From NCBI RefSeq assembly GCF_000818195.1, contig NZ_JTHL01000001.1:1515294-1579293 (forward strand): a stretch of DNA of 64,000 nucleotides, in the 5' to 3' direction. A program made the translations under genes and the position numbers. The notes under the pieces are model-generated. The model saw only the letters and a program-made list of their open reading frames with translations, did not search any database and was not told the DNA's origin. This document shows positions 12,303 to 35,788 of the stretch, piece after piece (position 1 is the first letter of the stretch; every line of letters begins with the position of its first letter). This stretch comes from Streptomyces sp. 150FB. GTDB lineage: Bacteria; Actinomycetota; Actinomycetes; Streptomycetales; Streptomycetaceae.

Positions 12303-15131
12303 CTAGCCGACCGAGCTGTACGCCACCACTCCGCGCAGCACCTCGTCGACCGCCTTGCGCGCGTTCTTCGCGACCGTGCTGTTCTCCCGGGGTGCCGCCG
12401 CCGCGATCTGGCCGAGCACATCGATGACCTGCTTGCACCAGCGCACGAAGTCGCCGGCCGGCATCTCCGCCTCGCGCAGCACCTCGTCGAGTCCCTTGCC
12501 CGAGGCCCACATGTACACGGGCCAGGCGAAGCCGAGATCGGGCTCGCGCTGCCCGACCCCTTCCGTCTGGCTGATCTTGAAGTCCTCCTCCAGGGTGTCG
12601 AGACGGCCCCAGATACGGACCATCTCGGCCAGCGCCACCTTCGACTTGCCCGAGGGGACCTTGGGCGCCACAGCGTCGTCGGACTGCCTGGCCTCGTACA
12701 CCAGGGCCGAGGCGCATGCCGCCAGCTCGGCCGGGCCGAGCCCCTCCCAGACGCCGTCCCGCAGGCACTCGCTGGCGAGGAGGTCCAGTTCGCCGTAGAG
12801 CCGGGCGAGCCGCCTGCCGTGCTCGGTGACCTCGTTGCCCCGGAGGTAGTCCATCTCGGTGAGGAGCGCGACGATACGGTCGAAGGTGCGGGCGATGGTG
12901 TTCGTCCGGCCCTCGATGCGCCGCTCCAGTTGCTGGGTGTCGCGCTGGAGCCGGTGGTAGCGCTCGGCCCAGCGCGCGTGGTCCTCGCGCTCGTCGCAGC
13001 CGTGGCACGGATGCGCGCGCAGTTCCGTACGCAGCCGGGCGATCTCCCGGTCGTCGGCGGCCTCGGCACGCTGCTTGCGGTGCCGCTCGGGCACGATGTG
13101 CCCGGCCTTCGAGCGCAGCGCGGACGCGAGGTCGCGGCGCGACTGGGGCGAACGGGCGTTGAAGGTCTTCGGGATACGCATCCGCTCCAGCGCCTCCACG
13201 GGCACCGGGAAGTCCATCGAGGCGAGCCGCTTGACCTGCCGCTCCGACGTCAGGACGAGCGGGCGCGGCCCCTCCTGGTACTCAGCACCGCGGTGTCCGT
13301 TGGAACGGCCCGCCGGCACACCGGGGTCGAGCACCAGCGCGAGCCCGGCGAACTTGCCTGTCGGTACGTGGATCACGTCGCCCGGCTTGAGCTTCTCCAG
13401 CGACGAGGCTGCGGCGGCCCGCCGCTGCACCGCGCCCTGCTTCGCCAGGTCGTTCTCCCGGTCCTTGAGGTCGCGGCGCAGCCGCGCGTACTCCCCGAAG
13501 TCGCCGAGGTGGCAGGTCATGCCCTCGCGGTAGCCGTCGAGCCCTTCCTCGTTCCGCTGGACCTGGCGGGAGATGCCGACGACCGACTTGTCGGCCTGGA
13601 ACTGGGCGAACGACGTCTCCAGCAGCTCGCGCGAGCGGTGCCTGCCGAACTGCTGGACCAGGTTGACCGCCATGTTGTACGAGGGGCGGAAGCTGGAGCG
13701 GAGCGGATACGTCCGGGTCCCGGCCAGCCCGGCGAGGGCGCCCGGGTCCATGCCGCGCTGCCAGAGGACCACGGCGTGTCCCTCGACATCGATACCGCGC
13801 CGCCCGGCCCGCCCGGTGAGCTGGGTGTACTCGCCGGGGGTGATGTCGGCGTGCTGTTCGCCGTTCCACTTGACCAGCTTCTCCAGGACCACGGACCTGG
13901 CCGGCATGTTGATGCCGAGCGCCAGGGTCTCCGTGGCGAAGACCGCCTTGACGAGGCCCCGTACGAACAGTTCCTCGACGACCTCCTTGAACGTGGGCAG
14001 CATGCCCGCGTGGTGCGCGGCGACCCCGCGCTCCAGGCCTTCGAGCCATTCGTAGTACCCGAGGACATGCAGGTCGTCCCGGGGGATGGAGGCGGTGCGC
14101 GCCTCGACGATCTCGCGCACCCGGCCGCGCGCCTCGTCGTTGTTGAGCCGCAGCCCGGCGAACATGCACTGCTGCACGGCCGCCTCACAGGCGGCCCTGC
14201 TGAAGATGAAGGTGATCGCCGGCAGCAGGTCCTCGGCCTCGAGACGCGCGATGACCTCGGGCCTCGACGGCGTCCAGACGCGGCTGCGGGACCTGCGCTC
14301 CCGCTCCCTGTCGGCCTCGCGGATCATCTTTCCGCGCCGCCGCTCGCGGGGGTTGTACGTGCGCTGGTTCTCCATCCGGGCCATCCGGACGAGATCGGGG
14401 TTCGTCTCGCGCTTCGCGACGCCACGGCCGCCGTGGTCGCTCTCCTCCTCGAAGAGGTCGTACATCCGGCGCCCGGCGAGCACGTGCTGCCACAGCGGCA
14501 CGGGCCGGTGCTCGGAGACGATCACTTCGGTGTCGCCACGGACGGTGTCCAGCCAGTCGCCGAACTCCTCCGCGTTCGAGACCGTCGCGGAGAGTGAGAC
14601 CAGCGTCACCGACTCGGGCAGGTGGATGATCACCTCTTCCCAGACCGCGCCCCTGAAGCGGTCGGAGAGGTAGTGCACCTCGTCCATCACCACATAGCCG
14701 AGCCCGAGCAGCGACCGGGAGCCCGCGTACAGCATGTTGCGGAGCACCTCGGTGGTCATGACGACCACCGGCGCGTCCGAATTGACGCTGTTGTCCCCGG
14801 TCAGCAGGCCGACCTTGTCGGCGCCGTAGCGCTTGACCAGGTCGGCGTACTTCTGGTTGGAGAGCGCCTTGATCGGCGTGGTGTAGAAACACTTGCGGCC
14901 CTTGGTCAGGGCCAGGTGCACGGCGAACTCGCCGACGATGGTCTTGCCGGAACCGGTGGGCGCCGCGACCAGCACGCCCTTTCCGGCTTCGAGCGCCTGG
15001 CAGGCCTCGATCTGGAACGGGTCCAGGCCGAAGTCGTACATCTCGCGGAAGGGTGCCAGCGCCGTGGCCTGCTCGACGGCGCGGGTCCTGGCAGCGGCGT
15101 ACCGCTCGGCTGGTGAGAGGTCCTCTGTCAT
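12303..15131 (-). CDS. helY: Ski2/HelY-type DEVH-box helicase
   Basis: The 942-residue superfamily 2 helicase has Walker A APTGSGKT (about residues 52-60), motif Ia TTPIKALSNQKY, DEVH box (VMDEVHYLSD, about residue 148), SLSATVSN, and in the second RecA domain VFATETLALGINMPA and TGRAGRRGID. The C-terminal DSHCT-like region ends in RWCKQVIDVLGQIAAA. The architecture is that of actinobacterial HelY and Mtr4/Ski2 RNA helicases, so it probably unwinds RNA or DNA with ATP. ATG 15131 has no clear ribosome site; a RecA-NDp-like promoter at 15141-15163 would start transcription close to the ATG, suggesting induction by DNA damage. Confidence 0.9.
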   Translation of the reverse strand: MTEDLSPAERYAAARTRAVEQATALAPFREMYDFGLDPFQIEACQALEAGKGVLVAAPTGSGKTIVGEFAVHLALTKGRKCFYTTPIKALSNQKYADLVKRYGADKVGLLTGDNSVNSDAPVVVMTTEVLRNMLYAGSRSLLGLGYVVMDEVHYLSDRFRGAVWEEVIIHLPESVTLVSLSATVSNAEEFGDWLDTVRGDTEVIVSEHRPVPLWQHVLAGRRMYDLFEEESDHGGRGVAKRETNPDLVRMARMENQRTYNPRERRRGKMIREADRERERRSRSRVWTPSRPEVIARLEAEDLLPAITFIFSRAACEAAVQQCMFAGLRLNNDEARGRVREIVEARTASIPRDDLHVLGYYEWLEGLERGVAAHHAGMLPTFKEVVEELFVRGLVKAVFATETLALGINMPARSVVLEKLVKWNGEQHADITPGEYTQLTGRAGRRGIDVEGHAVVLWQRGMDPGALAGLAGTRTYPLRSSFRPSYNMAVNLVQQFGRHRSRELLETSFAQFQADKSVVGISRQVQRNEEGLDGYREGMTCHLGDFGEYARLRRDLKDRENDLAKQGAVQRRAAAASSLEKLKPGDVIHVPTGKFAGLALVLDPGVPAGRSNGHRGAEYQEGPRPLVLTSERQVKRLASMDFPVPVEALERMRIPKTFNARSPQSRRDLASALRSKAGHIVPERHRKQRAEAADDREIARLRTELRAHPCHGCDEREDHARWAERYHRLQRDTQQLERRIEGRTNTIARTFDRIVALLTEMDYLRGNEVTEHGRRLARLYGELDLLASECLRDGVWEGLGPAELAACASALVYEARQSDDAVAPKVPSGKSKVALAEMVRIWGRLDTLEEDFKISQTEGVGQREPDLGFAWPVYMWASGKGLDEVLREAEMPAGDFVRWCKQVIDVLGQIAAAAPRENSTVAKNARKAVDEVLRGVVAYSSVG

Positions 15132-15140
15132 CTTGCTTCG

Positions 15141-15163
15141 AGCCTACCCGTCAGCTCTGACAG
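15141..15163 (-). promoter_or_regulatory. RecA-NDp-like (PafBC-type) promoter of the helicase gene
   Basis: On the minus strand CTGTCAGAG (15163-15155), exactly 8 nt, then TAGGCT (15146-15141). The actinobacterial RecA-NDp consensus is TTGTCRGTG-N8-TANNNT; there is one core mismatch (A for T). The predicted start lies within a few nt of the helicase ATG at 15131. Confidence 0.5.
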
Positions 15164-17276: not shown

Positions 17277-18233
17277 TTATTCCTGGCCGTCGTACGCCAT
17301 GAGGGCCTCACGCGCCGCCGAGCGCGCGCTGTCGGCGAGATCTGCCGGGGAGACGATCCGGCCGTCCCCGCCCAGCCGGAGCGCGAGCCGTCTCAGCGAG
17401 GCGGGCGCCGGGGTGCGCAGCGTGATCCGCAGCCCTCCGTCGGGCCGTTCGACGGCGCTGTCGTGCGGGTAGTACTCCGCCACCCACCGGCCACCGGGAC
17501 CGACGTCGACGACCACCTCGGGGTCGTCGGCCGAGGGCTGCACGAGCCCCTCCGACAGGTCCCGGAGCTCCAGCTCCGGCGGTGCGGCGGGCGCGTCGAG
17601 CAGTCTGATCTCGGCGACCCGGTCGAGCCGGAAGGTGCGCCGCGCCTCGGAGAGCCGGCACCAGCCCTCCAGATAGGTGTGGCCCACGGCGAACAGCCGG
17701 ATCGGATCGACCTCGCGCTCGGTGAGTTCGTCGCGGGCCGGCGAGTAGTAGCGCAGCCAGAGCCTGCGCCGCTCGGAGATCGCCCGGTCGACGTCGGCGA
17801 ACACGCCGCCCTCGGACTCGAAGGTCACCGAGAGCCGCGAGCTGGCCCCCGCCGCCTCCCCCGCCGCCGCCTCCAGCTTCGCCGTGGCGCGCAGCAGCGC
17901 CTGCCGGTCGCTCTCGCGCAGCCCCGGCAGGGTCGCGACAGCGCGGGCGGCGACGAGCAGCGCCGTCGCCTCGTCGGCGGCCAGCCGCAGCGGTTCGGCG
18001 ACGTCGTCGGCGTTGTGCCACCAGATCCGGTCGCCGTCGGTGTCGATGTCGAGCAGGTCGCCGCCCCGGAAGCTCGTCCCGCACATCGGCAGCACGTCGA
18101 GGTCGGAGATGAGTTCGTCCTCGGTGATGCCGAACGCCCGGGCGACATCGGTGACATGGGCGCCGGGGCGCTCCCGCAGATAGGTCACCAGCGAGAGCAT
18201 CCGCCGGGTCTGGTCGATGGCGTTGGCTGCCAT
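17277..18233 (-). CDS. pafC: WYL-domain transcriptional regulator PafC
   Basis: The 318-residue protein has an N-terminal HTH-type region (RPGAHVTDVARAFGITEDELISDLDVLPM) and a C-terminal WYL domain (LWLRYYSPARDELTEREVDPIRL, GHTYLEGWCRL). It forms a heterodimer with PafB. Family knowledge: in mycobacteria PafBC activates LexA-independent DNA-damage genes from RecA-NDp promoters. ATG 18233 lies 10 nt after the pafB stop, so the two are co-translated. In this window two RecA-NDp-like promoters were found (helicase and RecB-like nuclease), plausible targets of this regulator. Confidence 0.92.
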   Translation of the reverse strand: MAANAIDQTRRMLSLVTYLRERPGAHVTDVARAFGITEDELISDLDVLPMCGTSFRGGDLLDIDTDGDRIWWHNADDVAEPLRLAADEATALLVAARAVATLPGLRESDRQALLRATAKLEAAAGEAAGASSRLSVTFESEGGVFADVDRAISERRRLWLRYYSPARDELTEREVDPIRLFAVGHTYLEGWCRLSEARRTFRLDRVAEIRLLDAPAAPPELELRDLSEGLVQPSADDPEVVVDVGPGGRWVAEYYPHDSAVERPDGGLRITLRTPAPASLRRLALRLGGDGRIVSPADLADSARSAAREALMAYDGQE

Positions 18234-18243
18234 GTGTGCCCCC

Positions 18244-19200
18244 TCAGCCCTTGGCCACGGCGCGCAGCCGCTCCACGACGTCGGCCCGCAGGTCAGCGGG
18301 CTCCAGTACGACCACATCGGGGCCGAACTCCACCAGCCAGGCGTCGAGCCCGTGCCCGTACGGCACTTCCAGCTCGTCCCAGCCGTTGCCCAGCTCACGC
18401 GACGACAGCGCCTTGGCGCGCAGCGGGTAGCCGCACCCCGCGCGCAGTCGGATCAGGGCGGATCGGGTCGCCGTCTCCCCGGCCCAGCTCTCCACGGTCT
18501 CGCGTACGGTCACCACATCGGGCACCGGCGCCACGAACTGCCCGGCCCTGGAACGGACCCGGCCGCTGATCCGCGACAGCCTGAAGACCCGCTCGGCCCC
18601 CCGGTCACGGTCCCAGCCCGCCAGGTACCAGTGGCCGCGCCAGCACTCCAGCGTCCACGGCTCCACCTGGCGCTGTTCCGGGCGCGCCGAGTTGGCCTTG
18701 CGGTAGTCGAAGGCGACGGGGCGACGGTCGCGGCAGGCCAGCATCAGCGGTTCGAAGGCGGCCTCGTGGACGGGGATGCGGGGTTCGAGGGCGCTGTGGT
18801 GCGCCTCGTACGAGTCCTCGGCCTCCGGCATCCCGGCGGCGCGCAGCTTCTGCAGGGCCCCGCTCGCGGCGCCCGCGAGACGGGCCTGCTGCCACACCTT
18901 GGCCGCGAGGCCGAGCGCTGCTGCCTCCTCGCCGTCGAGGGTGATGGGAGGCAGTCTGTTGCTGTCCCTGCGGGCGACGTAGCCGGTCTCGCCGTCGAGG
19001 TTCTCGACCGTCTCGATGACCAGGCCGAGTTCGCGGAGATCGTCCTTGTCCCGCTCGAACATCCGGTTGAACGCGTCGTCGGAGCCCGCTTCGAGGTAGG
19101 CCTCGATCGAGCCGCGCAGCTCACGCTTGCTGAGCGGGCGCCCGGTACCGAGCAGGCACAGCGCCAGATTCATCAGCCGCTCAGCCTTGGCAATCGCCAT
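18244..19200 (-). CDS. pafB: WYL-domain transcriptional regulator PafB
   Basis: The 318-residue partner of PafC has an N-terminal winged-helix region (ERLMNLALCLLGTGRPLSKRELR, then FNRMFERDKDDLRELGL) and a C-terminal WYL domain (VAFDYRKANS, ECWRGHWYLAGWDRD, VFRLSRI). It probably senses damage-derived nucleic acid through the WYL domain and recruits RNA polymerase with PafC. It begins at ATG 19200. Unlike in mycobacteria it is separated from pafA by two FKBP genes. No RecA-NDp motif was seen upstream, so it is not obviously self-induced. Confidence 0.92.
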   Translation of the reverse strand: MAIAKAERLMNLALCLLGTGRPLSKRELRGSIEAYLEAGSDDAFNRMFERDKDDLRELGLVIETVENLDGETGYVARRDSNRLPPITLDGEEAAALGLAAKVWQQARLAGAASGALQKLRAAGMPEAEDSYEAHHSALEPRIPVHEAAFEPLMLACRDRRPVAFDYRKANSARPEQRQVEPWTLECWRGHWYLAGWDRDRGAERVFRLSRISGRVRSRAGQFVAPVPDVVTVRETVESWAGETATRSALIRLRAGCGYPLRAKALSSRELGNGWDELEVPYGHGLDAWLVEFGPDVVVLEPADLRADVVERLRAVAKG

Positions 19201-27255: not shown

Positions 27256-27390
27256 ATCCCTCACCCCGCTCGGTTCGCCCCGCTCGATGTGACCTTCAAG
27301 ATCAGACCCTACAAGCCGGGTCCGACATCGGCCCGGCACTTTGGTACAACGTCCGGAGCCTGCCCCGATCATTCCCTGACCGGGGTCGTT

Positions 27391-32468: not shown

Positions 32469-33470
32469 TCAACCGTCCGTCGGTCCGTCCGACACTTCCT
32501 CGGAGGCCACGGGCTGATCGGACACGGCGGACGCTGCGGACTCTCCGGAGCGGTCGGCCTTGCCCGACCGGCCGCGGGAGCCGCTGGTGCTCCCCGGACC
32601 GTCGTAGTCGTCGCCGTACGCGCCCTTGGAGGGACGGCGGCGGCGCAGCGGGGGCTCGACACCGTCGGCGAGACGGCGGGCCGTCACCAGGAAGCCTGTG
32701 TGGCCGATCATCCGGTGGTCGGGCCGGACGGCCAGACCCTCGACGTGCCAGTTGCGGATCATCGACTCCCACGCGGCCGGCTCGTTGAACGTACCGAACT
32801 CGCGGATCGTCTCCACGGTGCGGGCGAGCTGGGTGGTGGTCGCGACGTACGCGCAGAGGATGCCGCCGGGAACCAGGGCCTTGGAGACGGCCTCCATGCA
32901 CTCCCAGGGGGCGAGCATGTCCAGGATCACGCGGTCGACATCCGTGTCCGACAGGTTGTCCTGGAGGTCACCCACGGTGAGCTGCCAGGCCGGGTGCGGT
33001 TCGCCGAAGTAGCGCTCCACGTTGTTCCTGGCGATGTCGGCGAAGTCCTCGCGGCGCTCGTAGGAGTGCAGCATGCCCTGGTCACCGATGACCCGCAGCA
33101 GGAAGGCGCTGAGCGAGCCGGAGCCCACACCGGCCTCGACGACACGTGCGCCGGGGAAGATGTCGGCGAAGGCCAGGATCTGGCCGGCGTCCTTCGGGTA
33201 GACCACGGCGGCGCCGCGGGGCATGGACAGGACGTAGTCGGGGAGCAGGGGGCGCAGCGCGAGATAGGCGACGTTCCCCGTGGTACGGACAACACTGCCC
33301 TCGGGAGCACCGATCAGCTCGTCGTGCGGGAAGGACCCTTTGTGGGTGTGGAAATTCTTCCCGGCTTCGAGCGTGAAGGTGTAGTGGCGTCCCTTGGGAT
33401 CTGTGAGCTGGACCTGGTCCCCGACCTTGAAGGGCCCGCGTCGGCGGGCGGCACCGGTCGGTTCGGACAT
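32469..33470 (-). CDS. trmI: tRNA (adenine-N1)-methyltransferase TrmI
   Basis: The 333-residue SAM-dependent methyltransferase has the TrmI N-terminal beta domain (KVGDQVQLTDPKGRHYTFTLE), SAM motif I VVEAGVGSGSLSAFLLR, YERREDFADIARNN and the catalytic LDMLAPWECMEAV. It makes m1A58 in the T-loop of tRNA as a homotetramer. The C-terminal 70 residues are an arginine/glycine/serine-rich low-complexity tail. ATG 33470. Synteny with the M50 protease and the RecB-like nuclease follows mycobacteria (Rv2118c, Rv2119) as I recall it. Confidence 0.93.
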   Translation of the reverse strand: MSEPTGAARRRGPFKVGDQVQLTDPKGRHYTFTLEAGKNFHTHKGSFPHDELIGAPEGSVVRTTGNVAYLALRPLLPDYVLSMPRGAAVVYPKDAGQILAFADIFPGARVVEAGVGSGSLSAFLLRVIGDQGMLHSYERREDFADIARNNVERYFGEPHPAWQLTVGDLQDNLSDTDVDRVILDMLAPWECMEAVSKALVPGGILCAYVATTTQLARTVETIREFGTFNEPAAWESMIRNWHVEGLAVRPDHRMIGHTGFLVTARRLADGVEPPLRRRRPSKGAYGDDYDGPGSTSGSRGRSGKADRSGESAASAVSDQPVASEEVSDGPTDG

Positions 33471-33558: not shown

Positions 33559-34806
33559 TCAGTTCGACTGCGGTCGGGCCATCGCCGCCACGAAGGCGCG
33601 CTCCACGTCCGTCGTGGACAGCACCCCGTAGATCTCCCCCGACTCCTCCACGACCAGGTACTCCGTGGCCGGGCTCGCCCTGAGGCGTTCCAGGAGCGCT
33701 TCCCCGGCCAGCTCGGCGGAGACCCTCATTCCCTCCGTCAGATCCTGGGCCAGGGTGCTCACCGCGACCCAGGGCCGGCGGTGCTGGGGGACGCCGGCGA
33801 TCGCCGTCTCCCGGACCAGCGCCCTCGGTTCGCCCTGGCTGTCCACGACGACCAGGGCCCTGGCCCCGGCCTCGTTGGCCCGGCGCAGCGCCTCGGAGAG
33901 CGGGGTGTGGGCCTCGACCGGTACGGCACGGCGGGTGAGCGCGCGGGCCTCCAGCTCCGGGAGGTGTTCCCTGAGCCGGGCCATCCGCAGGCTGTTGCCG
34001 GCGCCGGTCCACATGATCGCGGCGAGGATGGCGGCGAGCAGGGCGTCGGTGACGGTCTCGACTCCGCCGATGTCCTCGCTGGTCCTGCCGAATCCGCCTG
34101 TCTGGGTGAGCAGCGGCAGGCCGACGAGGACGATGACGGCCAGTGCCCTGCCGACCCACGCGGCGGCGACGGTACCGCTCATGGGCTTTCCGGTGATCTT
34201 CCAGACGACGGCGCGCAGCATCCGGCCGCCGTCGAGCGGCAGTCCTGGGAGCAGGTTGAAGGCGGCGACGAGGAGGTTGGAGACCATCAGCCCCGCGAGC
34301 AGGACGCCGGGGATGGAGGAGCCGTCGACAGCGAGCAGGACGAGGTAGAAGACGCCGGCGAGCACCAGGGAGAGCAGCGGGCCGACAAAGGCGAGGACGA
34401 ACTCCCGGCCCGGGGTCTCGGTCTCCTTCTCGATCTCGGAGACGCCGCCGAAGAACTGGAGCTGGATGCGGCGCACCGGCAGTTTGAAGCGCAGCGCGGC
34501 GACGGTGTGGGCCAGTTCGTGGACGAGTACGGAGGCGTAGAAGGCGACGGCGAAGAACAGGGCCACCAGGTAGCGGGCCCCGCCGAGTCCCGGGAGGACC
34601 CGGTCGAGCTGGCCGCCGAAGATCCAGGTGATGAGGGCGGCCACCAGGAACCAACTGGGAGCGACGTAGACGGGCACGCCGAAGGGCCGGCCCATGAGGA
34701 TGCCGCCGCCGGGGTCGGCGGGACGCTCGGGCTTGCCGCCGGGCGTGGGGCCCTCCGTACCGGACCGACGCTGCTCGCTCCCGCCGCTCTCGTCGTCCTC
34801 TTTCAC
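33559..34806 (-). CDS. Site-2 protease family (M50) membrane peptidase with CBS pair
   Basis: The 415-residue integral membrane metalloprotease has the zinc motif HELAH (residues 96-100) in a transmembrane helix and the second active-site motif NLLPGLPLDGG (about 182-192); the C-terminal soluble part (from about 290) carries two CBS domains ending in GVLSTTDVERAFVAA. It probably cleaves within the membrane to release a regulatory fragment; CBS domains may sense nucleotides. GTG 34806 with AAGGG upstream. The substrate is not identifiable; it neighbours trmI and the RecB-like gene. Confidence 0.88.
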   Translation of the reverse strand: MKEDDESGGSEQRRSGTEGPTPGGKPERPADPGGGILMGRPFGVPVYVAPSWFLVAALITWIFGGQLDRVLPGLGGARYLVALFFAVAFYASVLVHELAHTVAALRFKLPVRRIQLQFFGGVSEIEKETETPGREFVLAFVGPLLSLVLAGVFYLVLLAVDGSSIPGVLLAGLMVSNLLVAAFNLLPGLPLDGGRMLRAVVWKITGKPMSGTVAAAWVGRALAVIVLVGLPLLTQTGGFGRTSEDIGGVETVTDALLAAILAAIMWTGAGNSLRMARLREHLPELEARALTRRAVPVEAHTPLSEALRRANEAGARALVVVDSQGEPRALVRETAIAGVPQHRRPWVAVSTLAQDLTEGMRVSAELAGEALLERLRASPATEYLVVEESGEIYGVLSTTDVERAFVAAMARPQSN

Positions 34807-34885
34807 GTGTTCCCTTCGTTGGCGACAGCGTCACTCGCTCGGTCATCCGCCGCGAGAGGCTCTGTGGTCGATGGTATTCCGATCG

Positions 34886-34908
34886 CTGTCGGTGTCGGGT
34901 CGTAGGGT
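34886..34908 (+). promoter_or_regulatory. RecA-NDp (PafBC-type) promoter of the RecB-like nuclease
   Basis: CTGTCGGTG (34886-34894), 8 nt, TAGGGT (34903-34908) fits the actinobacterial RecA-NDp consensus TTGTCRGTG-N8-TANNNT, and TAGGGT is the commonest -10 form in Streptomyces. The expected transcript start is at or next to the ATG at 34916, i.e. leaderless. Confidence 0.65.
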
Positions 34909-34915
34909 CTGCGTC

Positions 34916-35788
34916 ATGAGTACCAGCCTGCCGCCCTCTTCGCTGTCACCCTCGCGTGCGAACGACTTCATGCAGTGTCCCCTGTTGTACCGGTTCAGGG
35001 TGATCGACAAGTTGCCGGAGAAGCCGAGCGAGGCCGCGACGCGCGGCACGCTGGTGCACGCCGTGCTGGAGCGGCTCTTCGACGATCCGGCGGTCGACCG
35101 TACGGCGCCGCGCGCCAGGGCGATGGTGCCAGGGCAGTGGGACCGGCTGCTGGAGTCCAGGCCGGAACTGGCCGGATTGTTCGACGGGGACGCGGAGGGC
35201 GAGCGGCTGACGCGCTGGCTGGGTGAGGCCGAGCGGCTGGTCGAGCGGTGGTTCTCGCTGGAGGATCCGACGCGTCTCGAGCCCGCCGAGCGGGAGCTGT
35301 TCGTGGAGACGGAACTCGATTCGGGGCTCCGGCTGCGCGGGGTGATCGACCGGGTGGACGTGGCGCCGACGGGTGAGGTGCGGATCGTCGACTACAAGAC
35401 GGGGAAGGCGCCGCGTCCGGAGTACGCGGAGAGTGCGCTGTTCCAGATGAAGTTCTACGCCTTGGTGGTGTGGCGGTGGAAGCGCGTCGTACCCCGCCGG
35501 CTCCAGTTGGTGTATCTCGGCAGTGGCGAGGTCGTGACGTACGACCCGGTGGAAGCGGACCTGGAGCGGGTGGAGCGCAAGCTGCTCGCGCTGTGGGAGG
35601 CGATCAAGCTGGCCACCGAGACGGGTGAGTGGCTGCCTCGGCCCACGAAGCTGTGCGGCTGGTGCGACCACAAGGCTTTCTGTCCGGAATTCGGCGGCAC
35701 CCTCCCGGTCTACCCGCTGACGGTCGCCCCGGCGGCCGCGCCGGCCGGGGCGGTGGCCGGGGCGGTGGAGGTCCAGGAAAGCGTCTAG
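34916..35788 (+). CDS. RecB-family nuclease with Fe-S cluster (Cas4/AddB-like)
   Basis: The 290-residue single-domain PD-(D/E)XK exonuclease has GVIDRVDV and VDYKTGK (metal ligands and catalytic Lys) in the core, and Cys21 (FMQCPLLYRF) with C-terminal CGWCDHKAFCPEF, the four-cysteine 4Fe-4S staple of AddB and Cas4. It probably processes DNA ends in damage repair. Start at ATG 34916 with no ribosome site; a RecA-NDp promoter directly in front predicts a leaderless, DNA-damage-induced transcript. Homologous to mycobacterial Rv2119 by gene context. Confidence 0.9.
   Translation: MSTSLPPSSLSPSRANDFMQCPLLYRFRVIDKLPEKPSEAATRGTLVHAVLERLFDDPAVDRTAPRARAMVPGQWDRLLESRPELAGLFDGDAEGERLTRWLGEAERLVERWFSLEDPTRLEPAERELFVETELDSGLRLRGVIDRVDVAPTGEVRIVDYKTGKAPRPEYAESALFQMKFYALVVWRWKRVVPRRLQLVYLGSGEVVTYDPVEADLERVERKLLALWEAIKLATETGEWLPRPTKLCGWCDHKAFCPEFGGTLPVYPLTVAPAAAPAGAVAGAVEVQESV

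Follow-up and report, generated by a model that had tools for sequence, protein, structure and literature searches.

Does a nuclease gene that lies divergently from pafBC belong to the DNA damage response governed by these regulators, and is it transcribed from a promoter placed to start the message at its own ATG? The question is raised by a 64,000-nucleotide stretch of the Streptomyces sp. 150FB genome (hereafter the window), which is of Streptomyces type and holds a Pup-proteasome cluster together with a gene for a nuclease whose best relatives are 80 named Streptomyces loci. PafBC acts through the promoter type known as RecA-NDp (stated in the accessible text of PMC6789036); its mode of transcription activation is sigma adaptation, and single-stranded DNA is the signal that switches it on (accessible text of PMC11804915). 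We consider it probable, at roughly four chances in five, that the nuclease gene has a real RecA-NDp promoter, at which RNA polymerase with the housekeeping sigma factor would be activated by PafBC and would produce a leaderless mRNA beginning at the nuclease ATG.

Pfam searches recognised in the cluster two Pup-ligase-type genes, two proteasome subunits, a proteasomal ATPase, pafB and pafC. Which of the Pup-ligase-type genes is pafA and which is dop we assume from position. A first-pass annotation of this DNA had placed pafBC in the same window as the nuclease, and both genes are present there and intact by Pfam. The features discussed below are listed in Table 1.

Table 1 Features of the nuclease locus and of the pafBC region, in window coordinates
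Feature	Position	Strand	Basis or remark
DSHCT/DEAD helicase downstream of the second motif	12303..15131	-	Pfam
Second RecA-NDp-like motif, 2 mismatches	15141..15163	-	9 nt before the ATG of the DSHCT helicase, beside pafBC
pafC (HTH_PafC + WYL + WCX)	17277..18233	-	Pfam
pafB (WYL + WCX)	18244..19200	-	Pfam
TrmI-type tRNA methyltransferase	32469..33470	-	Pfam; a similar gene adjoins the nuclease in two small genomes (L269, L270)
M50-type protease with CBS domain, divergent upstream neighbour of the nuclease	33559..34806	-	Pfam
Upstream element CTGTCGGTG, RecA-NDp/PafBC-type	34886..34894	+	Exact match; TGTC nearly invariant in matching orthologues
-10 element TAGGGT after an 8-nt spacer	34903..34908	+	Matching orthologues retain TA...T; the bases in between differ outside the family
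ATG start codon and predicted start of a leaderless transcript	34916..34918	+	Gap conserved in orthologues
290-aa RecB/Cas4/AddB-type PD-(D/E)XK nuclease; four Cys conserved	34916..35788	+	PF12705, 139.5 bits; invariant residues; model; Foldseek

A search of the window sequence located CTGTCGGTGTCGGGTCGTAGGGT exactly at 34886-34908 on the plus strand. The site has the layout CTGTCGGTG-TCGGGTCG-TAGGGT, with a spacer of 8 nt, and the T that closes TAGGGT (34908) is followed by 7 nt and then by the ATG. The published RecA-NDp consensus is tTGTCRgtg-8nt-TannnT (accessible text of PMC5656591). Written as TTGTCRGTG - 8 nt - TANNNT, this consensus differs from the nuclease promoter at 1 of 12 positions, the first T being replaced by C, so that the motif and its spacing fit as the first-pass annotation had proposed. 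No sigma-70-like promoter or terminator was found between 34700 and 35950. An in-frame ATG at 34694 was set aside as a start, as it lies upstream of the motif and inside the divergent M50 frame (33559-34806). In the window alone, the literal sequence has four matches at up to three mismatches versus 1.82 expected; such a count is weak evidence, and the strong evidence for the putative promoter is comparative.

Upstream regions of 129 hand-picked orthologues were compared, comprising 70 from Streptomycetaceae (of 100 positive genomes) and 59 from other genomes of the class, the latter drawn from 112 strong nuclease matches outside the genus. The scan accepted an in-frame ATG, GTG or TTG at a gap of 4-10 nt, and the start picked in an orthologue may differ from the one that aligns with the window ATG, lying up to 801 nt upstream (L042). 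The motif was present at no more than 3 mismatches in 12, and 5-8 nt before an in-frame start, in 111 of the 129 regions (65/70 in Streptomycetaceae and 46/59 in the rest of the class), versus 0.85 of 129 expected from dinucleotide shuffles of each upstream region in which the real start-codon positions were retained. When starts were restricted to those within 360 nt of the place aligning with the window ATG, the count was 110/129 versus 0.775 in the shuffles. Among the named Streptomyces, 79 of 80 loci have the motif at no more than two mismatches with an ATG 6-8 nt downstream; the single exception (L263) has just 73 nt of upstream sequence. At the first consensus position, C is the commonest base before the nuclease gene (77% of 78 named Streptomyces, the tally covering 78 of the 79 matching loci). 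Outside Streptomycetaceae, the spacer bases drift and TGTC and TA...T stay, as tallied over motif-matching rows only.

The first-pass annotation had placed the transcript start at the ATG, and the start-codon geometry beside the motif is indeed conserved across the class, as the counts above indicate; the putative promoter signature at the start of the nuclease gene is deeply conserved. For a leaderless transcript, the -10 element has to stand at a constant distance from the start codon, and the distance conserved here suggests that the mRNA would begin at the nuclease ATG. Relatives show TACAGT, TAGAGT or TAACCT in place of TAGGGT, which makes a ribosome-binding site in disguise improbable.

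More than three mismatches were counted in 18 of the 129 orthologues, one of them (L049) truncated where its contig ends, and several of these poor matches retain only a -10-like box and the ATG. The site could be a plain leaderless housekeeping promoter, in which just the -10 element and the start codon matter and TGTC is not used by PafBC. Four orthologues (L109, L110, L136 and L138) have TANNNT at 6/7 nt from the ATG and lack TGTC, and a -10 element plus start codon alone would give basal leaderless expression. We nevertheless find this explanation distinctly unlikely, given that TGTC hardly varies among the matching orthologues although the spacer drifts outside the family, that no sigma-70-type promoter was detected at the site, and that the motif with both of its elements is met again in front of repair genes.

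The recurrence of the motif was measured against the same pattern read backwards. TGTCRGTG-N8-TANNNT occurs at 49 sites in this genome, versus one for the backward pattern, and the fuller consensus at no more than one mismatch has 89 matches genome-wide versus 9. Across 148 genomes of the class there are 1904 motif sites versus 72 for the control; taken genome by genome, the motif count is higher in 134, equal in 9 and lower in 5. The 11 genomes of the genus of the window contain 539 sites versus 9, and five named Streptomyces genomes contain 37 to 56 sites versus 0 to 3. S. zaomyceticus, which we take to be a close relative of S. venezuelae and which was searched in its place, has 39 sites versus 2. 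Every one of the 11 genus genomes and the five named Streptomyces genomes searched thus has a strong excess of the motif. A chance match was considered as an explanation of the nuclease site and is rejected on the orthologue, named-Streptomyces and genome-wide counts, set against the shuffles and backward controls.

The genes behind the 49 sites include recA, uvrB, ruvC, ung, rarA, thyX and uvrD, a DNA polymerase III beta-subunit gene, phoH, rpsF, and genes for a RadA-like ATPase, an AlkZ-like glycosylase and an HhH-GPD glycosylase. The names DinG, RadA, ssb and 'dnaN paralogue' for genes of this set are our assumption. Some sites precede genes without a known repair role, for instance those for seryl-tRNA synthetase and moaA, and two (L009 and L172) have no convincing gene behind them. 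The proteins scanned with Pfam were 30 chosen by eye from the 48 sites with a reading frame, and the share of repair genes in the set is therefore biased upward; L015 and a further five of the 30 remained without a Pfam match at the thresholds applied. At 17 of the 49 sites, the chosen frame has its first start 5-9 nt downstream of the motif, a count that includes weak frames (L013) and that takes the first start in frame where a later one is possible (in recA too).

Individual sites of this set include one 7 nt from the ATG of the gene for the AlkZ-like glycosylase (L166) and one before an intein-bearing thyX (L018). A third (L181) precedes a gene that by eye resembles a nucleotidyltransferase and that has no Pfam match at 1e-10.

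Within the window, the second RecA-NDp-like motif precedes the DSHCT helicase gene. It is found in 23 of 30 Streptomycetaceae orthologues of the helicase, at no more than three mismatches and with the start 8-10 nt downstream. A weak RecA-NDp-like site with three mismatches also occurs at 27306-27328 on the minus strand, some 50 nt upstream of where pup probably starts; chance alone would give many 3-mismatch matches of this kind in a window of this size.

The nuclease gene is linked to pafBC well beyond this genome. Among the 148 genomes of the class, a strong nuclease match was obtained in 123 (out of 139 nuclease-positive genomes, the 16 with weak matches being dropped), a PafB match in 138, and both in 114. 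The nuclease gene and pafB lie on one contig in 76 genomes and are divergent in 76/76. The distance between them ranges from 0.9 to 68 kb and is below 50 kb in 75 genomes; in nine genomes of one family, 1.3 to 2.2 Mb in size, the gap is just 0.9 kb. The link is not obligatory, because 24 of the 138 genomes with PafB have no strong nuclease match.

Two of these nine genomes were read by eye at this locus (L269 and L270, from genomes G124 and G207). The nuclease gene there adjoins a TrmI-like gene in back-to-back orientation, pafB and pafC follow immediately, and a TatC-like gene also stays with this group. PafB and PafC of L269 were identified by BLAST. Among the frames of at least 90 aa in these stretches of 16-17 kb, a limit that pup would escape, inspection by eye revealed neither a Pup-ligase nor a proteasome gene. 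The divergent linkage between the nuclease gene and pafBC, kept in these two small genomes, points to a putative working relationship between regulator and enzyme. A further genome has a single 650-aa frame (L272:2604-4556, minus strand) that starts like PafB and is apparently a natural PafB-PafC fusion; its nuclease promoter has one mismatch, and the genome-wide motif count is 0 versus 2 for the control.

The motif may alternatively be read by another regulator, such as ClgR, instead of PafBC. In mycobacteria, recognition of the P1/RecA-NDp promoter by ClgR has been reported (cited in the accessible text of PMC5656591), and a partial motif at the nuclease gene is kept in two near-complete genomes of one family, G128 (3 mismatches) and G176 (2 mismatches, by eye), where no PafB match was detected even at E 0.001. 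Both genomes carry WYL proteins, of which two in G128 lie close together and weakly resemble PafB or PafC, and neither has a genome-wide excess of the motif (1 versus 1 and 0 versus 0, respectively). PafBC has been found at RecA-NDp in vivo by cross-linking and immunoprecipitation, as stated in the accessible text of PMC6789036. Together with the linkage of the nuclease gene to pafB in all 76 testable genomes, this makes a regulator other than PafBC very improbable.

The LexA box has the consensus GAAC-N4-GTTC. Membership of the nuclease in the LexA/RecA SOS regulon, which its resemblance to a DNA-repair enzyme might suggest, is hardly credible, as no such box occurs at up to one mismatch between 33565 and 35243, matches across the whole window are at chance level (22 versus 20.6), and Rv2119 of M. 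tuberculosis is over-expressed in delta-recA cells (accessible text of PMC8151990).

The enzyme that a PafBC-activated promoter would deliver was examined through its conserved residues and a structural model. Residues H48, D145, D159/K161, Q177 and Y181 are invariant in 51/51 aligned orthologues, as are C21, C247, C250 and C256. We take H-D-DxK-QxxxY and C-n-C-x2-C-x5-C to be the catalytic set and the ligand pattern, respectively, of Fe-S RecB-like nucleases. With all of the expected residues present, the description of the protein as a single-domain Fe-S nuclease of the RecB/Cas4/AddB type, made earlier from the letters alone, is supported at the level of residues.

The AlphaFold2 model of the nuclease has a mean pLDDT of 90.5. 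Its best Foldseek match is chain A of the AdnAB complex, presumably AdnA (query TM 0.58-0.65), followed by the Cas4-family ACE1 (0.55-0.63); lower matches include AddB (about 0.5), Dna2 (0.54-0.59) and EXO5 (0.33-0.40), and further lower-scoring ones are RecE, a putative exonuclease, Cas4 and MGME1. A PDB sequence search with the nuclease returned four chains up to E 1, all of them named helicases and of the AdnAB type by entry. Pfam and NCBIfam profiles detected no helicase domain in the stand-alone 290-aa nuclease. Assignment to Cas4 (NCBIfam TIGR00372) was rejected at 51.3 bits, below the cut-off of 65, and assignment to AddB (NCBIfam TIGR02786) at 54.4 bits, far below the cut-off of 486.5, with residues 30-174 only being matched. 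Because many nucleases of the AdnA/Cas4/AddB/Dna2 fold act on single strands or DNA ends, the most likely role, judged from the model and by analogy, would be that of a repair nuclease acting on single strands or trimming ends.

The analysis establishes the sequence elements with their spacing and conservation, the predicted nuclease fold and catalytic residues, the linkage to pafBC, and a genome-wide gene set behind the motif. We infer PafBC binding, induction, the transcript start, the Fe-S cluster and the substrate for this nuclease, and the proposed events would run as follows. DNA damage would expose single-stranded DNA, which would bind PafBC. PafBC would let the polymerase recognise TGTCRGTG plus a -10 box (here TGTCGGTG and TAGGGT), and the nuclease would be translated directly from the 5' AUG. 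The stand-alone Fe-S PD-(D/E)XK nuclease would then trim single strands, flaps or ends during repair.

A more speculative extension, to which we give only a small chance, is that the nuclease may be a built-in feedback part that removes (or makes) the single-stranded DNA signal of PafBC and would thus set the duration of the response. The nuclease would be induced from the divergent end of PafBC's own cluster, and its partner may be the DSHCT helicase, whose gene flanks pafBC on the opposite side and has a similar putative promoter.

A PafBC-activated RecA-NDp promoter at the nuclease gene would have a bearing on Streptomyces in general. Stratton 2022 noted that an initial search suggested a lack of conservation of the M. 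smegmatis PafBC motif in S. venezuelae (accessible text of PMC9380542), and a RecA/LexA-independent damage response in Streptomyces was left open at that time for this reason. The motif excess found in Streptomyces genomes sits ill with that remark, S. venezuelae itself lying outside the genomes counted. The excess is in line with published RecA-NDp promoters of two S. coelicolor genes, recA and SCO6735 (accessible text of PMC5087735), and with the remark in a review that the RecA-NDp promoter extends to other Actinobacteria (accessible text of PMC8223512). The data suggest that a PafBC-type damage response may exist in Streptomyces, and the occurrence of the motif before core repair genes bears on the question left open in 2022 (PMC9380542, accessible text). 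The nuclease would provide a clean single-gene reporter for testing such a response.

The view that the nuclease is a new candidate for the mycobacterial-type response holds in part. Rv2119 is listed as a RecB-family exonuclease (accessible text of PMC2587704), and its over-expression was recorded in delta-recA M. tuberculosis treated with mitomycin (accessible text of PMC8151990), so that there is a precedent for a nuclease of this sort being induced by damage. It is likewise already known that RecA-NDp promoters occur beyond the mycobacteria, in Streptomyces and other Actinobacteria. In the accessible portions of the open-access literature examined, we saw no account of the conserved start-codon promoter of the nuclease, of its constant divergence from pafBC, or of a genome-wide PafBC regulon in Streptomyces.

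The Streptomyces sites have their elements and 8-nt spacing in common with the RecA-NDp/PafBC promoters of mycobacteria; the set likewise includes recA along with further repair genes, and the genome has pafBC. They differ in that the first position at the Streptomyces nuclease gene is usually C, not T, and in that dependence on PafBC is here a prediction from sequence elements. By description, the nuclease resembles Rv2119, which is called a RecB-family exonuclease and was over-expressed after mitomycin C in cells lacking RecA. Like the macrodomain gene SCO6735 of S. coelicolor, which is UV-inducible (accessible text of PMC5087735), it is a Streptomyces gene behind a RecA-NDp promoter; unlike SCO6735, it encodes a different enzyme, and the accessible text describes no link of SCO6735 to the position of pafBC. 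With AdnAB chain A, the Cas4-family ACE1, AddB, Dna2 and EXO5, the nuclease shares the fold by Foldseek, the H-D-DxK-QxxxY residues and the four-Cys pattern, and it is set apart from these Fe-S RecB-like relatives as a stand-alone protein of 290 aa that scores below the equivalog cut-offs of both Cas4 and AddB.
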